The translations under genes were made by a program, and so were the position numbers. Below, piece by piece: positions 6,463 through 46,555 of a stretch of 46,555 nt of DNA. Every line of letters starts with the position of its first letter. Position 1 is the stretch's first letter. Origin of the DNA: an uncultured Bacteroidota bacterium (GTDB taxonomy: Bacteria; Bacteroidota; Bacteroidia; Chitinophagales; Saprospiraceae). The stretch lies in contig CAIZLM010000115.1 of assembly GCA_903933805.1 (NCBI GenBank), forward strand, positions 1 through 46,555. Direction: 5' to 3'. Under the pieces are notes generated by a model. The model saw only the letters and a program-made list of their open reading frames with translations, had not been told where the DNA came from and searched no databases.

Positions 6463-6625
6463 GTAACTGGTTAGGTGGCACGCTGTCTGGCCAAAAAAGG
6501 CCCATTTTCCGTCCTACTTCGCAGATTTTTTTGACCGTAGCGCTGCTACGGCCTACAAAAATCCGCTTCGTCTGGCAAAAAATAGCCTCTTTTTTGTCTC
6601 AGACGCGACCACGCTAACCAGTTAC
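6463..6625 (+). mobile_element. MITE-like element family 1, copy A (long form)
   Basis: 163 bp with terminal inverted repeats GTAACTGGTTAG and CTAACCAGTTAC. Most of the element is one imperfect palindrome centred on CCGTAGCGCTGCTACGG. The flanking 8-mers AATAATAA and TAAAATAA match at 6 of 8 positions, possibly an aged target duplication in AT-rich sequence. No transposase is encoded. It sits between the terminator of the first cluster and the promoter of the GntR gene. Confidence 0.8.
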
Positions 6626-18740: not shown

Positions 18741-18749
18741 TCATTGTCA

Positions 18750-21700
18750 ATGGCTTTTAAGCATTCATTCCTACTACTACCGATGCTCTTCTGCACCTGC
18801 AGAAAAGCGTCACCGGTATTGTTTGAATTGCTCGACCCAGCCCAAACAGGGATTGATTTCGCCAACAAACTCTCGGAAGGGGATAGCCTGAACATTCTAA
18901 ACTATGTTTATTACTACAACGGCGGCGGGGTAGGCATCGCAGACTTCAACAACGACGGACTCGAGGATGTCTTTTTTTCTGGCAATGAATCATCGTGCCG
19001 GCTCTACCTAAACAGGGGCAATCTCCATTTCGAAGACGTTACCCAACAAGCCGGCCTCACCACAACCCAATGGTGTACCGGTGTCGCAATTGCCGATGTC
19101 AACAGCGATGGCTGGCTGGATATGTACGTCTGTACTGCCGGCTACCCTCAACCGGAACGCAGAAAAAATTTGCTGTTCATCAACCAAGGCCAGTCCAATG
19201 TGGTATTTTCAGAAAAAGCCGCCGCATTTGGGGTGGCTGATACAGCCTACTCTACCCAAGCCGCATTTTTCGACTATGACCACGATGGGGACCTTGACCT
19301 CTATGTATTGAACCACGCCAATGAACGCGAAACATTGAACACACCACTGCCCAAAAAAAACAATGGAGAGGGCAGTAGCACCGATCATTTGTACCGCAAC
19401 AATGGGAACTTGACGTTTACCAATGTTTCCGATGACATGGGCATACAAACGGAAGGGTATGGCCTCGGCCTCGCCATCGCGGATGTCAACAACGATGGCT
19501 GGGAAGACATATACACGTCCAATGACTTTATTTCCAATGACTTATGCTATATAAACAAGCAAGGAAAGGGGTTTTCCAATCAAATTTCCTGTTTTTTTAA
19601 ACACCAATCGTACAACGGCATGGGCTGCGACTTCGCGGATGTTAACAACGATGGCCGCCCGGATCTCGTGGTCGCGGATATGCTGCCGGAAACTGACTAC
19701 AACCGCAAAACAATGGCTGGGGCCATGAGTTGGGATAAATCGCAAATCATCCAACAGGCAGGGTACGAACCCCAATATATGCGCAATACCCTGCAACTGG
19801 CCGTAGATGGACAACCCCAACACCAGGAGGATGTACCCAACGCTGCACCGCCGACTGTTTTCGCTGAAATAGGGCAATTGGCCGGCATCGCTGCCACAGA
19901 CTGGAGTTGGGCGCCCCTGTTTGCAGACTTCGACAACGATGGATACAAAGACCTCTTTATCACCAATGGCTACCTCCGCGATATCACGGACAAAGATTTT
20001 TTGGATTACTCCGCCAATCTCGCCATGTTTAAAAGCAAGGGTGATGCCAACCACGATTTATTGCCAAAAATTAGGCAATTGAAAGGCAAAAAACTGCCAA
20101 ATCGTATTTTTCACAACAACAGGGACTTGACTTTTTCTCCCGGAAATGAGGCTTGGGGGATGACACAGCCTGCTTGTTCAAATGGCGGCGCCTATGCCGA
20201 CCTCGACAACGATGGCGACCTCGATCTTGTGGTCAACAACATCAATGAACCCGCTTTTCTGTATAAAAATAACGCCAATAACGCCAACACCAACCATTAT
20301 ATTGGCATACGCCTGGAAGGGCCTCCCGGAAATACCTCGGGCGCTGGAGCGGCCGTCACCCTCGTTTCTGGCGGACAACGGCAATACCTTGAACAACACA
20401 CAACGAGGGGCTTTATGTCCGCTGTTTCCGCGGTATTACACGTCGGACTGGGCGCTAACACCACAATAGATACCCTTGTGGTGCGTTGGTGCGGTGGTAA
20501 GACACAATGCTTGACGGGAGTCATGGCCAATCAAACCCTGACGCTTAAAGCCTCTGCGGCAAAAGACGCGACATTGCAAAATAACATTGCGACCAATACG
20601 TTGTTGCAGGACGTGACGGCTTGGTCAGGTATTGACTTTTCACACCGCGAATCGGTGTTCAACGATTTCCAATATCAGCCCTTGTTGCCCCACGGATTTT
20701 CTCAAAATGGGCCGCCCCTTGCTGTCGGAGACCTCAACGGCGATGCTTTAGACGATTTTTATGTCGGTGGAGCAAAAGGCCAGTCGGGTCGCCTCTATTT
20801 CCAGCAACCGGATGGCCGTTTTACTTGGAAAGATTTGCCAAAAGATGTAGATACGGAAGATACCGCCAGCGTGATCTTTGACGCCAATGGAGATGGATAC
20901 AACGACCTGTACGTCGTGGGTGGCGGTTGTGCTTGGCCTGTCGCCAGTCCTCAATACCAGGACAGGCTTTACGTCAATGATGGACAGGGGAATCTCCACT
21001 GGGAAATCAATGCATTGCCACCCATGCCAACGCCGGGCGCTTGCGTTTCAGCAGCCGACTTCGACGCAGATGGCGACCTCGACCTGTTTGTCGGTGGAAG
21101 TGTTCGTCCCATGCAGTATCCATTGCCAGCCAGCAGCTACTTGCTTCAAAACAACGGTGGGCAATTTACAGATGTAACGTCCGCGTTGGCCCCCGAATTG
21201 CAAAATATTGGTATCGTGACCGACGCACGCTGGGCGGACATTGACCGTGATGGCGTCCCCGACCTTGTGCTGGTGGGAGAATGGATGCCCATGACCATTT
21301 TCTCCAACAACCGTCGTAAATTGGTAGATGTTACCGCCAAATATGGCTTGGATCATACCAACGGTTGGTGGAATACGTTGGCCATACAAGACCTTGATGG
21401 GGATGGCGACTTGGATATGGTGGCTGGAAACTTGGGGCTAAACGCCCCGTACAAAGCATCGCAACAGTCTCCCATAAAGGTGTATGCCAAAGATTTTGAC
21501 CACAATGGCACCCTAGACGCCCTGATAACCCGCGTCGAAGGAGGTCGGGAAAAGCCCATACACCAACGGGACGAATTGCTGGCACAGATCAATGGACTTG
21601 CCAAAAAATACCCCCGCTATGCCCGTTATGCCGCGGCCACGCTACCGGAAATATTCGGTGAAAACGCGCTTTTGGACGCATATTCTAAAACGTGTAATAT

Positions 21701-22082
21701 CTTAGAATCAGCTTGTTTTTTTCAACAAAATGGCCGATTTTTGGTTCAACCATTGCCCTTGTCAGCCCAAATAGCCCCAGTCAAAGCAATGCTTTGTGCA
21801 GATTTCAATGCCGATCATTTACCAGACATCTTATTGTCGGGCAATGACTATGCTGCCAATATCGCCACGGGGCGATACGATGCTTCCACTGGAGCGTTGC
21901 TCTTGGGTGATGGCCACGGCCATTTCAGCAGCTTGGGTGCCGCACGCAGCGGTTTTTGGGTAGATGGGGTGGGAGCGCGCTTGATGTATATCCAATTGAA
22001 GTCAGGGCAACAAGGTGTCTTGTCCGGAGAAAACAACGGAGCCCTGCGCTTGTTTCAAACCCCGACAGGCAACCTTTATTAA
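18750..22082 (+). CDS. FG-GAP/VCBS-repeat lipoprotein with ASPIC/UnbV domain
   Basis: 1110 residues from ATG 18750; a TTG six bases earlier is a less likely start. Signal peptide with Cys near residue 16 (LPMLFCTC), probably a lipoprotein. At least twelve calcium-binding FG-GAP/VCBS motifs of the form DxNxDGxxD are spread along it, for example DFNNDGLEDVF, DVNSDGWLDMY, DYDHDGDLDLY, DLDNDGDLDLV and DLDGDGDLDMV. They make two beta-propellers, one on each side of an ASPIC/UnbV domain at ~525-610 (GNTSGAGAAVTLVSGGQRQY, LHVGLGANTTIDTLVVRW). Such proteins recur beside SusC/SusD pairs in Bacteroidota and are thought to bind glycans or proteins at the surface; an enzymatic role is not established. 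Same operon as GH92. Confidence 0.88.
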   Translation: MAFKHSFLLLPMLFCTCRKASPVLFELLDPAQTGIDFANKLSEGDSLNILNYVYYYNGGGVGIADFNNDGLEDVFFSGNESSCRLYLNRGNLHFEDVTQQAGLTTTQWCTGVAIADVNSDGWLDMYVCTAGYPQPERRKNLLFINQGQSNVVFSEKAAAFGVADTAYSTQAAFFDYDHDGDLDLYVLNHANERETLNTPLPKKNNGEGSSTDHLYRNNGNLTFTNVSDDMGIQTEGYGLGLAIADVNNDGWEDIYTSNDFISNDLCYINKQGKGFSNQISCFFKHQSYNGMGCDFADVNNDGRPDLVVADMLPETDYNRKTMAGAMSWDKSQIIQQAGYEPQYMRNTLQLAVDGQPQHQEDVPNAAPPTVFAEIGQLAGIAATDWSWAPLFADFDNDGYKDLFITNGYLRDITDKDFLDYSANLAMFKSKGDANHDLLPKIRQLKGKKLPNRIFHNNRDLTFSPGNEAWGMTQPACSNGGAYADLDNDGDLDLVVNNINEPAFLYKNNANNANTNHYIGIRLEGPPGNTSGAGAAVTLVSGGQRQYLEQHTTRGFMSAVSAVLHVGLGANTTIDTLVVRWCGGKTQCLTGVMANQTLTLKASAAKDATLQNNIATNTLLQDVTAWSGIDFSHRESVFNDFQYQPLLPHGFSQNGPPLAVGDLNGDALDDFYVGGAKGQSGRLYFQQPDGRFTWKDLPKDVDTEDTASVIFDANGDGYNDLYVVGGGCAWPVASPQYQDRLYVNDGQGNLHWEINALPPMPTPGACVSAADFDADGDLDLFVGGSVRPMQYPLPASSYLLQNNGGQFTDVTSALAPELQNIGIVTDARWADIDRDGVPDLVLVGEWMPMTIFSNNRRKLVDVTAKYGLDHTNGWWNTLAIQDLDGDGDLDMVAGNLGLNAPYKASQQSPIKVYAKDFDHNGTLDALITRVEGGREKPIHQRDELLAQINGLAKKYPRYARYAAATLPEIFGENALLDAYSKTCNILESACFFQQNGRFLVQPLPLSAQIAPVKAMLCADFNADHLPDILLSGNDYAANIATGRYDASTGALLLGDGHGHFSSLGAARSGFWVDGVGARLMYIQLKSGQQGVLSGENNGALRLFQTPTGNLY

Positions 22083-30176: not shown

Positions 30177-30254
30177 GTGACTGGTTGGGTGGCACGCTGT
30201 CTGAGACAAAAAATGGCCACTTTTTGTCTCAGACGCGACCATCTAACCAGTTGC
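30177..30254 (+). mobile_element. MITE-like element family 1, copy B (short form)
   Basis: 78 bp with ends GTGACTGGTTG and CTAACCAGTTGC. It lacks the central palindrome of the long form, leaving arms CTGTCTGAGACAAAAA and TTTTTGTCTCAGACG that make a perfect hairpin core. Flanking 8-mers GAAATTAT and GAAACTTT agree at 6 of 8 positions. It separates the DUF4432 gene from the SMP-30 gene and could act as a partial terminator between them. Confidence 0.75.
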
Positions 30255-30289: not shown

Positions 30290-31135
30290 ATGTCATTGCT
30301 GGATAAGTCAATTGTTTTTGCCGATGGTCTAGACCATCCTGAATGTGTAGCGGTTCACCCTGATGGTACTGTGTGGGCCGGAGGGGAAGCTGGTCAGATC
30401 TACCGTATTGCTGCCGATGGCGCTCATGTCGAGGAAGTAGCCAATACTGGCGGTTTTATTCTGGGCATCGCCTTTAGTCCGGATGCGGCTTGGTTGGCCA
30501 TTTGTGATTCGGGCCACCATTGCGTTTGGCGGCTTGATACCAAGACAATGCAGTTGGAGCGCTTTGCAGACGGCGCAGCAGGCCATGCGTTCAACATTCC
30601 AAATTATGCTGTTTTTGACAAAAAAGGCCATTTGTATGTCAGTGAAAGCGGCGCTTTTCGCGCTGTTACGGGCAAAATTTTAAAGTTTACACCCGAAGGA
30701 AAGGGTGAAATATGGCATGAAGGGCCCTTCGATTTTGCCAATGGTTTGGCACTGGGTCCTGATGAGACGTACCTCTGCGTCGCAGTTTCTTTTTTGCCCG
30801 GTGTGGAGTGCGTGGCCATTCAGCCCGACGGCAGTGCGGGTGCGCGTTCGCTGTATTGCACGCTGCCTGAAACTGTCCCCGACGGACTCGCTTTTGATGT
30901 CGAGGGCAATTTGTATGTATCTTGTTATGCGCCCAATAAGATTTTTAAAGTGACCCCAGCAAAAGCCGTGTCGGTGCTGATAGACGATTGGGAGGCGCAT
31001 ACAATCTCAAACCCAACCAATATTGCCTTTGGAGGCAGCGCGCTAGATCAGCTTTTTGTAGCGAATATTGGCCGTTGGCACATTACCAAAATTGATGCGG
31101 GAATCACTGGATTGCCATTGTCGTCACACCGTTGA
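30290..31135 (+). CDS. SMP-30/gluconolactonase/LRE family lactonase
   Basis: 281 residues from ATG 30290; an in-frame extension to 30167 would run through the mobile repeat and is rejected. A six-bladed propeller with the metal-site residues of the family: Glu in HPECVAVHPDG, Asn in NIPNYAVFD, Asn in FANGLALGPDE and Asp in VPDGLAFDVEG. It hydrolyses sugar-acid lactones in the cytoplasm (no signal peptide). With uxuA and the DUF4432 gene it could open mannono-1,4-lactone to mannonate (inference). The last two bases of its TGA stop coincide with the first two of a mobile-element remnant, so the C-terminus may have been trimmed by an insertion, though all four metal ligands remain. Confidence 0.88.
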   Translation: MSLLDKSIVFADGLDHPECVAVHPDGTVWAGGEAGQIYRIAADGAHVEEVANTGGFILGIAFSPDAAWLAICDSGHHCVWRLDTKTMQLERFADGAAGHAFNIPNYAVFDKKGHLYVSESGAFRAVTGKILKFTPEGKGEIWHEGPFDFANGLALGPDETYLCVAVSFLPGVECVAIQPDGSAGARSLYCTLPETVPDGLAFDVEGNLYVSCYAPNKIFKVTPAKAVSVLIDDWEAHTISNPTNIAFGGSALDQLFVANIGRWHITKIDAGITGLPLSSHR

Positions 31136-31152
31136 CCACGCTAACCAGTTAC
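31134..31152 (+). mobile_element. Family 1 remnant, right end only (copy C)
   Basis: 19 bp, GACCACGCTAACCAGTTAC, identical to the last 19 bases of copy A. No left end is adjacent. It begins within the SMP-30 stop codon. Confidence 0.55.
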
Positions 31153-31232: not shown

Positions 31233-31240
31233 AAAATGCG

Positions 31241-31324
31241 TGCGGGAAAGGAGAGTCGAACTCCCACACCCTTACGGGCGTACGCCCCTGAAACGTATGC
31301 GTCTACCAATTCCGCCATTCCCGC
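31241..31324 (-). tRNA. tRNA-Leu (anticodon CAG)
   Basis: On the minus strand the 84-nt sequence folds as a class II tRNA. The 7-bp acceptor stem is GCGGGAA/TTCCCGC, the D-arm reads GGCGGAATTGGTAGACGC, the anticodon loop TTCAGGG sits in a 5-bp stem TACGT/GCGTA, there is a variable arm, and the T-arm is GGGAGTTCGACTCTCC. Positions 34-36 of the loop are CAG, and the long variable arm and D-loop fit leucine. The 3' CCA is not encoded. It lies alone, with its own terminator downstream and mobile copy D upstream. Confidence 0.95.
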
Positions 31325-31407
31325 GTCGATTTTAATAATCGGCTGCAAATGTAACCCCGTTTCCTTTTTTCCCAAGTATTATTTTAAAAAACTCATCTTT
31401 TTACTGA

Positions 31408-31571
31408 GTAACTGGTTAGCGTGGTCGCGTCTGAGACAAAAAAGTGGCCATTTTTTGCCAGAAGAAGCAGATTTTTGTAGACCGTAGTAGCGCTACGGTC
31501 AACAAAAATCTGCGAAGTATGGCGGAAAATAGGCCTTTTTGGGCCAGACAGCGTGCCACCTAACCAGCTAC
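31408..31571 (-). mobile_element. MITE-like element family 1, copy D (long form, 8-bp target duplication)
   Basis: 164 bp, ends GTAACTGGTTAG and CTAACCAGCTAC (plus-strand reading gives the reverse orientation of copy A). It is flanked on both sides by TTTACTGA (31400-31407 and 31572-31579), a perfect 8-bp target duplication. The centre GACCGTAG-TAGCG-CTACGGTC is a perfect hairpin. It is 83 bp upstream of tRNA-Leu. Confidence 0.85.
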
Positions 31572-31595
31572 TTTACTGAAATGAGTATCTGGCTA

Positions 31596-31701
31596 GTGTC
31601 GCGTCCAGTTAATGGCCCATGAATTGGGGCGGCAAACTTTTCCTTCATCAAGGCGTGAGGAGGACTCAATACGGGATATTGTAACCGACGAACAACGCAG
31701 A
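31596..31701 (+). mobile_element. Inverted-repeat element family 2, truncated copy J
   Basis: About 106 bp, starting GTGTCGCGTCCAGT, that match the reverse complement of 40840-40945 with about five differences. The second end present in the other copy is missing, so this is a fragment. The 31702-31940 stretch that follows is AT-rich and shows no gene. Confidence 0.7.
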
Positions 31702-32226: not shown

Positions 32227-32304
32227 GTAGCTGGTTAGCATGGTCGCGTCTAAGACAAAAAATGGGCCTTTTTGGGCCAGACAGCGTGCCACCTAACCAG
32301 TTAC
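32227..32304 (-). mobile_element. MITE-like element family 1, copy E (short form, 8-bp target duplication)
   Basis: 78 bp, ends GTAGCTGGTTAG and CTAACCAGTTAC. It is flanked by TTTTTTGT on both sides (32219-32226 and 32305-32312), a perfect 8-bp duplication, although a T-run makes chance agreement easier than for copy D. It inserted in the T-tract of the preceding terminator. Confidence 0.8.
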
Positions 32305-39066: not shown

Positions 39067-39228
39067 CAAACTGGTTAGGTGGTCGCGACTGAGACAAAAA
39101 AGAGGTCGTTTTTTGCCAGACGAAGCGGATTTTTGTAGGCCGTAGCAGCGCTACGGTCAAAAAAATCTGCGAAGTATGGCGGAAAATGGGCCTTTTTGGG
39201 CCAGACAGCGTGCCACCCAACCAGTTGC
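39067..39228 (-). mobile_element. MITE-like element family 1, copy F (long form)
   Basis: 162 bp in the same orientation as copy D, ends CAAACTGGTTAG and CAACCAGTTGC. The central palindrome is kept (CCGTAGCAGCGCTACGG). Flanking 8-mers CAAAAAGT and AATCAAAT agree poorly, so the target duplication is lost or the ends are shifted. It sits 7 bp past the hsp20 stop codon. Confidence 0.78.
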
Positions 39229-40789: not shown

Positions 40790-40945
40790 TGCCGCGTCCA
40801 GTCAATGGCTCATGCCTGTGGTGGTCCAATTTTTCCGTCCTCTGCGTTGTTCGTCGGTTACAATATCCCGTATTGAGCCCTCCTCACGCCTTGATGAAGG
40901 AAAAGTTTGCCTCCCCAATTCATGGGCCATTACTGGACACGGCAC
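40789..40945 (-). mobile_element. Inverted-repeat element family 2, complete copy K
   Basis: 157 bp with imperfect terminal inverted repeats of about 26 bp: GTGCCGCGTCCAGTCAATGG on the left and GTGCCGTGTCCAGTAATGGC as the reverse complement of the right end. About 106 bp match truncated copy J at 31596-31701. No full transposase gene is present. It fills nearly all of the 166 bp between the stop codons of the propeller-like gene and pdxH. Confidence 0.75.
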
Positions 40946-41715: not shown

Positions 41716-41753
41716 ACCTTTTTGGCCCAAACAGCGTACCATCTGACCAGTTA
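41716..41753 (-). mobile_element. Family 1 remnant, degraded (copy H)
   Basis: TTTTTGGCCCAAACAGCGTA followed by CCATCTGACCAGTTAA corresponds, with several mismatches, to the right end of copies D-F. The left part is not recognisable. It lies in the pdxH-metK intergenic region. The remaining metK leader (41787-41878) shows no riboswitch I can recognise. Confidence 0.4.
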
Positions 41754-41878
41754 AACTTTTTTTAAGCCAAGGAAAACCTACCTTTACCCCGCAAAATTCG
41801 GCATGCCCCGCCGTATTAACGCTGTAAGGGTATCCCTTATTTACAAAAACTCAACATTCATAATTCATCTATTCATCA

Positions 41879-43191: not shown

Positions 43192-43222
43192 GCCACCCCA
43201 AAATGCTGGGGTGGCTTTTTTT
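43192..43222 (+). terminator. Rho-independent terminator of metK
   Basis: A perfect 9-bp stem GCCACCCCA (43192-43200) / TGGGGTGGC (43207-43215) with a 6-nt loop and seven T's, 56 nt after the metK stop. The T-tract is shared with a half copy of mobile family 1. Confidence 0.85.
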
Positions 43223-43251
43223 GTCTCAGACGCGACCACCCAACCAGTTAC
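43216..43251 (+). mobile_element. Family 1 remnant, right half (copy I)
   Basis: The sequence from the T-tract through GTCTCAGACGCGACCAC to CCAACCAGTTAC matches the right end of copies A and B. The left half is absent and its place is taken by the metK terminator stem. It lies between convergent metK and acyltransferase genes. Confidence 0.55.
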
Positions 43252-46406: not shown

Positions 46407-46555
46407 GTAACTGGTTAGGTGGCACGCTGTCTGGCCAAAAAAGACCCATTTTCCGCCATACTTCGCAGATTTTTTTGACCGTAGCGCTGCTACGGCCTAC
46501 AAAAATCCGCTTCGTCTGGCAAAAAATGGCCTCTTTTTTGTCTCAGACGCGACCA
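46407..46555 (+). mobile_element. MITE-like element family 1, copy G (long form, cut by window end)
   Basis: 149 visible bases from GTAACTGGTTAGGTGGCACG to the GTCTCAGACGCGACCA typical of the right arm; only the last ~15 bases fall outside the window. Central palindrome CCGTAGCGCTGCTACGG is identical to copy A. Seven bases upstream a lone CCAGTTAC (46392-46399) faces it. Nothing else is recognised in 46261-46406. Confidence 0.75.

Follow-up and report, generated by a model that had tools for sequence, protein, structure and literature searches.

The 164-bp sequence at positions 31408–31571 (copy D) of the window, the 46,555-nucleotide stretch of Saprospiraceae DNA analysed here, is probably a MITE moved in trans by an IS66 transposase of the ISBst12 type, and its body probably belongs to an order-wide hairpin chassis that has switched transposase families. 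The MITE and IS66 part of this explanation is based directly on the ends, the 8-bp target duplications and same-ended IS66 elements in two related genomes. The switching part is based on homologous cores, unlike ends and matching duplication types, from which we infer switching by descent.

In the proposed mechanism, a single-ORF DDE transposase of the ISBst12 type (IS66 family) would read the GTAACTGGTTAG ends in trans and insert copy D with an 8-bp staggered cut. The body would be a hairpin chassis of ~162 bp with a conserved core, and in other species the ends and duplications of this chassis resemble two kinds of IS5-type element. The presence of the same chassis with IS66-like or IS5-like ends in different species suggests that it changed transposase family several times, with its length and core kept. 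The full-length palindrome may make such switching possible, because hairpin-templated correction would copy a change in one end to the other, and the two ends would shift jointly until they were accepted by another transposase. After insertion, a deletion between internal direct repeats may remove the core, and copies of 78 bp, 32 bp and possibly 12 bp would remain.

Copy D and its sister copies in the window

Copy D has the ends GTAACTGGTTAG...CTAACCAGCTAC, is flanked on both sides by a perfect TTTACTGA (31400–31407 and 31572–31579) and is an imperfect palindrome from end to end, the folding of which gives z values of −11.6 (DNA) and −12.7 (RNA) against 200 shuffles. Its core contains a terminal stem (CCGTAG..CTACGG), A/T runs and the right strand of an internal loop (CGAAGTAT). 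The features of copy D and of the other sites are as follows.

31400–31407, no strand: left target duplication TTTACTGA, read directly; its offset and length were checked in 67 copies
31408–31571, plus strand: copy D, full-length hairpin element of the 163/164-bp class
31470–31540, plus strand: conserved core of copy D, bounds approximate, homologous to the cores of other end classes
31572–31579, no strand: right target duplication TTTACTGA
6463–6625, minus strand: full-length copy, 163 bp, duplication 6/8
30177–30254, minus strand: copy of the 78-bp class, core absent, duplication 6/8
31134–31152, minus strand: solo end remnant (GACCACGCTAACCAGTTAC)
32227–32304, plus strand: copy of the 78-bp class, perfect TTTTTTGT duplication (8/8)
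39067–39228, plus strand: full-length copy with decayed ends, duplication 4/8
41717–41754, plus strand: one-end remnant
43216–43251, minus strand: one-end remnant
46407–46555, minus strand: full-length-type copy, cut by the contig end

The initial annotation had described a 164-bp element within a perfect 8-bp repeat, at one of nine related sites that lack a transposase gene. All nine are present (five further copies and three remnants besides copy D), and 164 bp is indeed too short for such a gene. Apart from the remnants, the sites fall into two classes, of ~163 bp (6463, 39067 and 46407, besides copy D) and 78 bp (30177 and 32227), and only copy D and the copy at 32227 have a perfect 8-bp duplication.

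Other features of the window are a tRNA-Leu (CAG) gene at 31240–31324, between the solo end remnant and copy D, and a second dispersed repeat, a 92-bp inverted pair (31610–31701 and 40841–40932) with 98% complementarity. A stretch like this 92-bp repeat is also seen by eye upstream of an IS66 relic in the related genome G025 (L133). Six diverged 45-nt repeats at 18938–21097 lie within a long ORF (18744–22082) that appears by eye to be calcium-binding and FG-GAP-like.

Copies and target duplications in the source genome

Copies in the source genome (G000) were analysed in a sample of 725,380 bases, consisting of 14 contigs on which matches had been listed, plus the window. A profile built from 46 full copies gives 202 non-overlapping matches in this sample, of which 78 span 150 or more positions; the matches make up 2.7% of the sample, a density that may be high because the contigs were chosen for having listed matches. 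In the whole genome, a 22-base asymmetric core word with up to three mismatches has 257 matches (128 + 129), and its reversed control has none. The element is thus present in hundreds of copies, with shorter, core-deleted copies in addition.

Tabulation of the flanking 8-mers, as suggested with the initial annotation, reveals a sharp peak in the length of the duplication. Among 67 both-ended copies in the sample, the 8-bp repeat is perfect in 26 and has at most one mismatch in 35; perfect flanking repeats of 3, 4, 5, 6, 7, 8, 9, 10, 11 and 12 bp number 3, 3, 0, 0, 2, 26, 0, 0, 0 and 0, respectively. The 8-bp duplication exceeds chance genome-wide.

Compared with mechanically called ORFs, 63 of the 78 full copies lie between ORFs and 15 inside one. 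A role as a terminator was considered and receives no support from orientation counts, as the neighbours are convergent for only 10 of the 62 full copies having two. At three places (C37:1145–1478, C198:12997–13327 and C198:30950–31282; L092, L073 and L074), two full copies follow each other in tandem with the same orientation, 7–8 bp apart, as if one element had entered the duplicated target of another.

Short forms and probable loss of the core

Facing end pairs with repeats agreeing at 7 or more of 8 positions occur at ~163 bp (33 pairs), 68–80 bp (18) and 32 bp (1); a 98-bp pair that overlaps and a 1608-bp pair flanked by T runs make up the rest. In the range of 66–84 bp there are 49 end pairs, 18 of which have a repeat of at least 7/8 and 9 a perfect one. 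When the short class is compared with the full-length consensus, the junctions are scattered, and many lie along a pair of imperfect direct repeats on either side of the core, as expected if the core was lost repeatedly by deletion after insertion. From these size classes and junctions, the 78-bp, 32-bp and possibly 12-bp copies would be products of core deletion that remain between 8-bp repeats, and the short form may also be independently mobile.

The 12-bp GTAACTGGTTAC footprints are rare, with five exact occurrences, two of which have 7/8 repeats of low complexity. Possible deletion footprints are a miniature of 32 bp flanked by a perfect 8-bp repeat (C258:9705–9736) and a 12-bp GTAACTGGTTAC with a 7/8 repeat (C72:44826–44837). 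Short forms of 48–71 bp with GAGCATG ends, resembling the 78-bp class, are present in G020 and G024 (e.g., L185, L200 and L203), with a 3-bp repeat in two of the five examined.

IS66 elements with related ends

The hallmarks of IS66 named in the initial annotation, ends that start with GTAA and 8-bp duplications, are found in the MITE copies, which had been attributed to an IS66-type transposase elsewhere in the genome. The source genome has three PF03050 loci: a classical three-gene IS66 (L057) with ends GTAAGCCTCCCACG and a perfectly duplicated 8-bp CACCGGGA; a single-ORF element (L059) with ends GTAACTATCCAGCC, whose flanks are alike at 3/8 positions, with no duplication seen; and a remnant for which no ends were found (L058). 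The GTAACTGGTTAG ends were seen at none of these three loci, and the partner may be missing from the assembly because it consists of 336 contigs. Of 268 facing end pairs 700–6000 bp apart in the 725-kb sample, just one has repeats of at least 7/8 (C109, 1608 bp); it was rejected as a transposase-bearing element, since with its T-run flanks it looks like two separate short elements. The source genome also contains a DDE_Tnp_1 element (L245 1360–2632, on C216) with ends CAGGGCA(A/G)ACGCATGAA, flanked on both sides by runs of eight C.

PF03050 matches are present in 11 of the 42 genomes of the genus, and two of these genomes contain IS66 elements whose GTAACTGGTTAGCC ends share 12–13 bp with the MITE ends. 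The element of G025 (L133, on C5) is 1050 bp long, with GTAACTGGTTAGCC at both ends, flanks alike at 6/8 positions and an internally shortened IS66 ORF. That of G009 (L145, on C1) is 3130 bp long, with TTTTCAGA duplicated at 8/8 positions and a 458-aa IS66 ORF that is interrupted by other insertions on both sides. Two copies of another insertion, with ORFs of 187 and 134 aa that appear IS1-like by eye, lie at L145 691–3595.

Ends are also common to MITEs and IS66 elements elsewhere. A multi-copy single-ORF IS66 element of G007 has ends GTAAAAACTTAG, several copies being with perfect 8-bp repeats and several without, and its GTAAAAACTTAGCC ends are common to MITEs in G003 and G012. The GTAACTATCCAGCC end of L059 is likewise found at one end of a G012 MITE, the other end of which shares 12 bp. 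All five IS66 proteins compared match NF033517, L133 below the cut-off, and the family of the presumed partner proteins is that of NF033517 and PF03050. The published element ISDge4 of the ISBst12 group has the TIRs GTGACTACTCAGCA and GTAACTGCTCAGCA and an 8-bp repeat (PMC12898284).

Because the ends and duplications match, an ISBst12-type IS66 transposase is well supported as the mover, and mobilisation by it would account for the copies. An intact matching transposase was found together with the MITE in no genome (the G025 ORF is shortened and the G009 ORF interrupted). No PF03050 match was found in three genomes with GTAA-ended chassis, namely G003, G012 and G014, although two of these assemblies (G003 and G014) are fragmented and that of G014 has a completeness of 77%. 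The attribution to an IS66-type transposase is thus retained, on the strength of the anatomy, the 8-bp duplications and the same-ended elements that a search for full IS66 elements retrieved from G025 and G009 (12–13 bp in common, damaged ORFs). As to its placement in the same genome, the 336 contigs of the source genome, from which a partner may be missing, yielded no such element. The partner is refined to the single-ORF ISBst12 type.

A conserved chassis across the order

A nucleotide search of 60 genomes gives matches in the source genome and nine others, which outside G000, G025 and G014 mainly cover the middle of the element. The matching elements that can be bounded are palindromes of 161–163 bp, and those outside the same three genomes have other ends. 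Variants of the chassis of 185–186 bp were also seen (G003:C692:790–974 and G012:C45:181357–181542). Before any model was used, BLAST linked elements of G000 with those of G003, G012, G023 and G008 (E 5e-16 to 5e-10). A covariance model (R1) built from 11 sequences matches 36 of the 42 genomes of the genus, with no match in G002, G011, G018, G035, G036 or G062. In 248 genomes sampled from the order, the 11 best candidates of each being scored, it has matches in 44, representing 35 of 125 genera, and none in the other 204. This order-wide hairpin, with IS5-type-like ends in other species, was missed in the first reading of the body.

The cores were compared across end classes against 300 shuffles that keep composition and mirror pairing. 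No shuffle scores as high in 84 of 130 cross-class comparisons, 73 of them at z > 5 and some reaching z values of 10–25, and at least one does in the remaining 46. Twenty-four of 26 elements have at least one cross-class comparison at 0/300, and G009 and G060 have none. Of the order-level elements, 22/23 match one or more of four references at 0/300 and z > 5. The likeness of the cross-species loci is somewhat selected because they were found with a model partly built from such elements and are the best of many candidates.

The outer 28-bp arms behave differently from the cores. In 45 pairs compared with 300 shuffles, no cross-class pair is at 0/300, and each of the four pairs that exceed all shuffles stays within one end class. 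For the nearest pairs from different classes, 9 and 18 of the 300 shuffles score as high, and within the broad GTAA class the number for the pair G000/G003 is 55. When the cores are arranged in a tree, nine changes are required to account for the four labelled end classes (54 of 64 rows), the minimum being three; the resolution of this tree is weak (88 columns, 10 of 61 inner branches starred).

End types, duplication types and IS5-type elements

The type of duplication goes with the type of end. Among 13 examined GTAA-ended relatives in other species, the 8-bp repeat is 8/8 in five and 7/8 in four. The 20 GAGCATG-ended elements (G016, G020, G024 and G028) have a 3-bp repeat in 18 cases, TTA in 11 and TAA in 7. 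For the AGACTTG-ended elements of G009, a TA-type (IS630-like) duplication was considered and rejected, because a 3-bp repeat, mostly ATT, with one more base in the element and the boundary accordingly one base outward, fits better (13/15). The TA-type duplication is the better fit for the same class in G008, G022 and G023 (2-bp TA in 6/7 vs a 3-bp repeat in 3/7). For AAGTACC ends, no clear duplication was seen by eye.

Two kinds of IS5-type element have comparable ends. That of G009 is 903 bp long, matches NF033580 and has ends GA(G/C)CATGTTC (GAGCATGTTC or GACCATGTTC); of its 14 examined copies, 13 have a TTA or TAA duplication. The other, seen once in G020 (L251), is 880 bp long with a split ORF, matches NF033581 and has ends AGACTTCTTGCG and a duplicated ATT. 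These ends have ~9–11 bp in common with those of the chassis, fewer than in the IS66 case, and therefore point to the family and not to the exact partner. In G020, no autonomous partner with the 20-bp ends of its own chassis was seen at IS distance in a listing read by eye; a facing pair of ~1 kb (C12, 174962–175973) was rejected as being made of two neighbouring short elements.

Covariation and the fold

In the 11-sequence model, 41 of 55 pairs have changes on both sides. Among 54 copies of the source genome there are 11 compensated double changes, compared with a shuffled mean of 4.1 and 0/300 shuffles as high, a small excess at nine pair sites, eight of which involve a single copy. Of 267 single changes in these copies, 176 break a pair. 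The double changes and the pair-breaking single changes fit arm-to-arm correction plus free decay.

Apart from the A/T runs, several of the best-conserved letters of the model structure are located in an internal loop (AgGC / cG.Ag). The same letters are conserved among 54 loci outside the training set, all of which were found with the model and some of which are of the same families. The conserved loop hints at a function of the folded strand, as far as the modelled structure indicates. The best Rfam score for positions 31350–31650 of the window is 23.1 bits, far below the gathering score, which is 116.6 for that family.

A tentative extension of the explanation, which we regard as possible and no more than that, is that an ancient hairpin of nearly fixed length (~162 bp), with a conserved internal-loop core that has a function of its own when folded, persists across the order by exchanging its ends so as to exploit whichever IS66- or IS5-type DDE transposase is available, with the full-length palindrome enabling the two ends to change in concert. 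Joint drift of the ends assisted by the palindrome and a function of the core are both directly testable.

Alternative explanations

The end classes might represent unrelated MITEs, each derived from its own IS, with a likeness that arose by convergence of A/T-rich palindromes and was picked up by the structure model. In favour of this explanation are the fact that the model rewards any hairpin of the right length, the 46/130 cross-class comparisons that fail to beat all shuffles (G009 and G060 never do) and the 1/23 order elements without z > 5. However, the core z values of 10–25 were obtained against shuffles that preserve composition and pairing, none of 300 scoring as high, the BLAST links of G000 with G003, G012, G023 and G008 are model-free, and 204/248 order genomes have no match among the 11 best candidates scored, so that we consider convergence unlikely. 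More weight, although still well short of probable, is given to the hairpin being primarily a functional fold, either a structured RNA or a folded DNA single strand, that acts for the host or selfishly and that transposition merely disperses. Covariation is consistent with this, as is the conservation of the internal loop in the 54 non-training loci, but the copies decay freely, no Rfam match comes near the gathering score, and compensatory changes can also result from arm-to-arm correction.

Two further alternatives concern the mover of the MITE. The classical IS66 of the source genome, L057, belongs to the same family, starts with GTAA and has a perfect 8-bp repeat (CACCGGGA); its ends differ from those of the MITE beyond GTAA, whereas the single-ORF elements share 12–13 bp, which makes L057 a very improbable mover, and it was rejected as the partner. 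Least credible is a palindrome of the REP/REPIN or IS200/IS605 kind moved by a Y1 tyrosine transposase. The high copy number, the palindromic form and the location of 63/78 full copies between ORFs would suit such an element, but the boundaries are sharp, with fixed 8-bp or 3-bp target duplications, and elements with a DDE transposase and the same ends exist. Y1 elements are not known to make such target duplications.

Relation to known elements

MITEs are usually viewed as derivatives of one transposon, sharing its fate. Copy D and its relatives have the features of a MITE: a length of 163–164 bp, no transposase gene, matched inverted ends and a fixed 8-bp duplication, with ends in common with the transposase-bearing elements of G025 (L133) and G009 (L145), both with damaged ORFs; none was found in G000. 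Copy D is not itself an IS66 insertion sequence, as its 164 bp encode no transposase. A MITE with IS66-type ends is a further case of an already known kind.

The ISBst12 group of IS66 (e.g., ISDge4; PMC12898284) has GTAAC..AGC ends and an 8-bp duplication like the MITE, and the presumed partners are single-ORF elements; the MITE lacks an ORF, and on informal inspection its body did not resemble the interior of the IS. Prokaryotic MITEs (PMC10969869) are likewise short and non-coding, with terminal inverted repeats, target duplications and truncated variants, but here the palindrome extends over the full ~162 bp and the core is common across genera while the end type changes. Rickettsia palindromic elements, according to the same source, are also palindromic, ~150 bp long and present in many copies; they insert in genes and encode peptides, whereas 63/78 full copies here lie between ORFs. 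REPs and REPINs are likewise high-copy extragenic palindromes but measure 20–40 bp and are attributed to RAYT tyrosine transposases (PMC3733652), in contrast to the 163 bp and target duplications observed here. The IS5 family (NCBIfam IS5_3 and IS5_4) has ends and 3-bp duplications like those of the chassis in G016, G020, G024, G028 and G009, but such ends are not found on the window copies.

No report of MITEs that keep their body while changing transposase family was found in the open-access literature searched, the coverage of which was partial. As far as this partial search reaches, there is also no description of a homologous chassis that keeps a near-constant length across an order while its ends are those of different transposase families. 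If this is true, a body that outlives its transposase by adopting the ends of another family would amount to another mode of existence and could help to explain the long persistence of gene-less repeats. Because it occupies 2.7% of the sampled sequence and some matches lie at contig edges (e.g., C2:1–163), the element is relevant to how genomes of this group assemble and evolve. Among the matches listed, the left end word also occurs on two short MAG contigs (L100 and L101) labelled Rhodobacteraceae and Flavobacteriales, the binning of which is doubtful.
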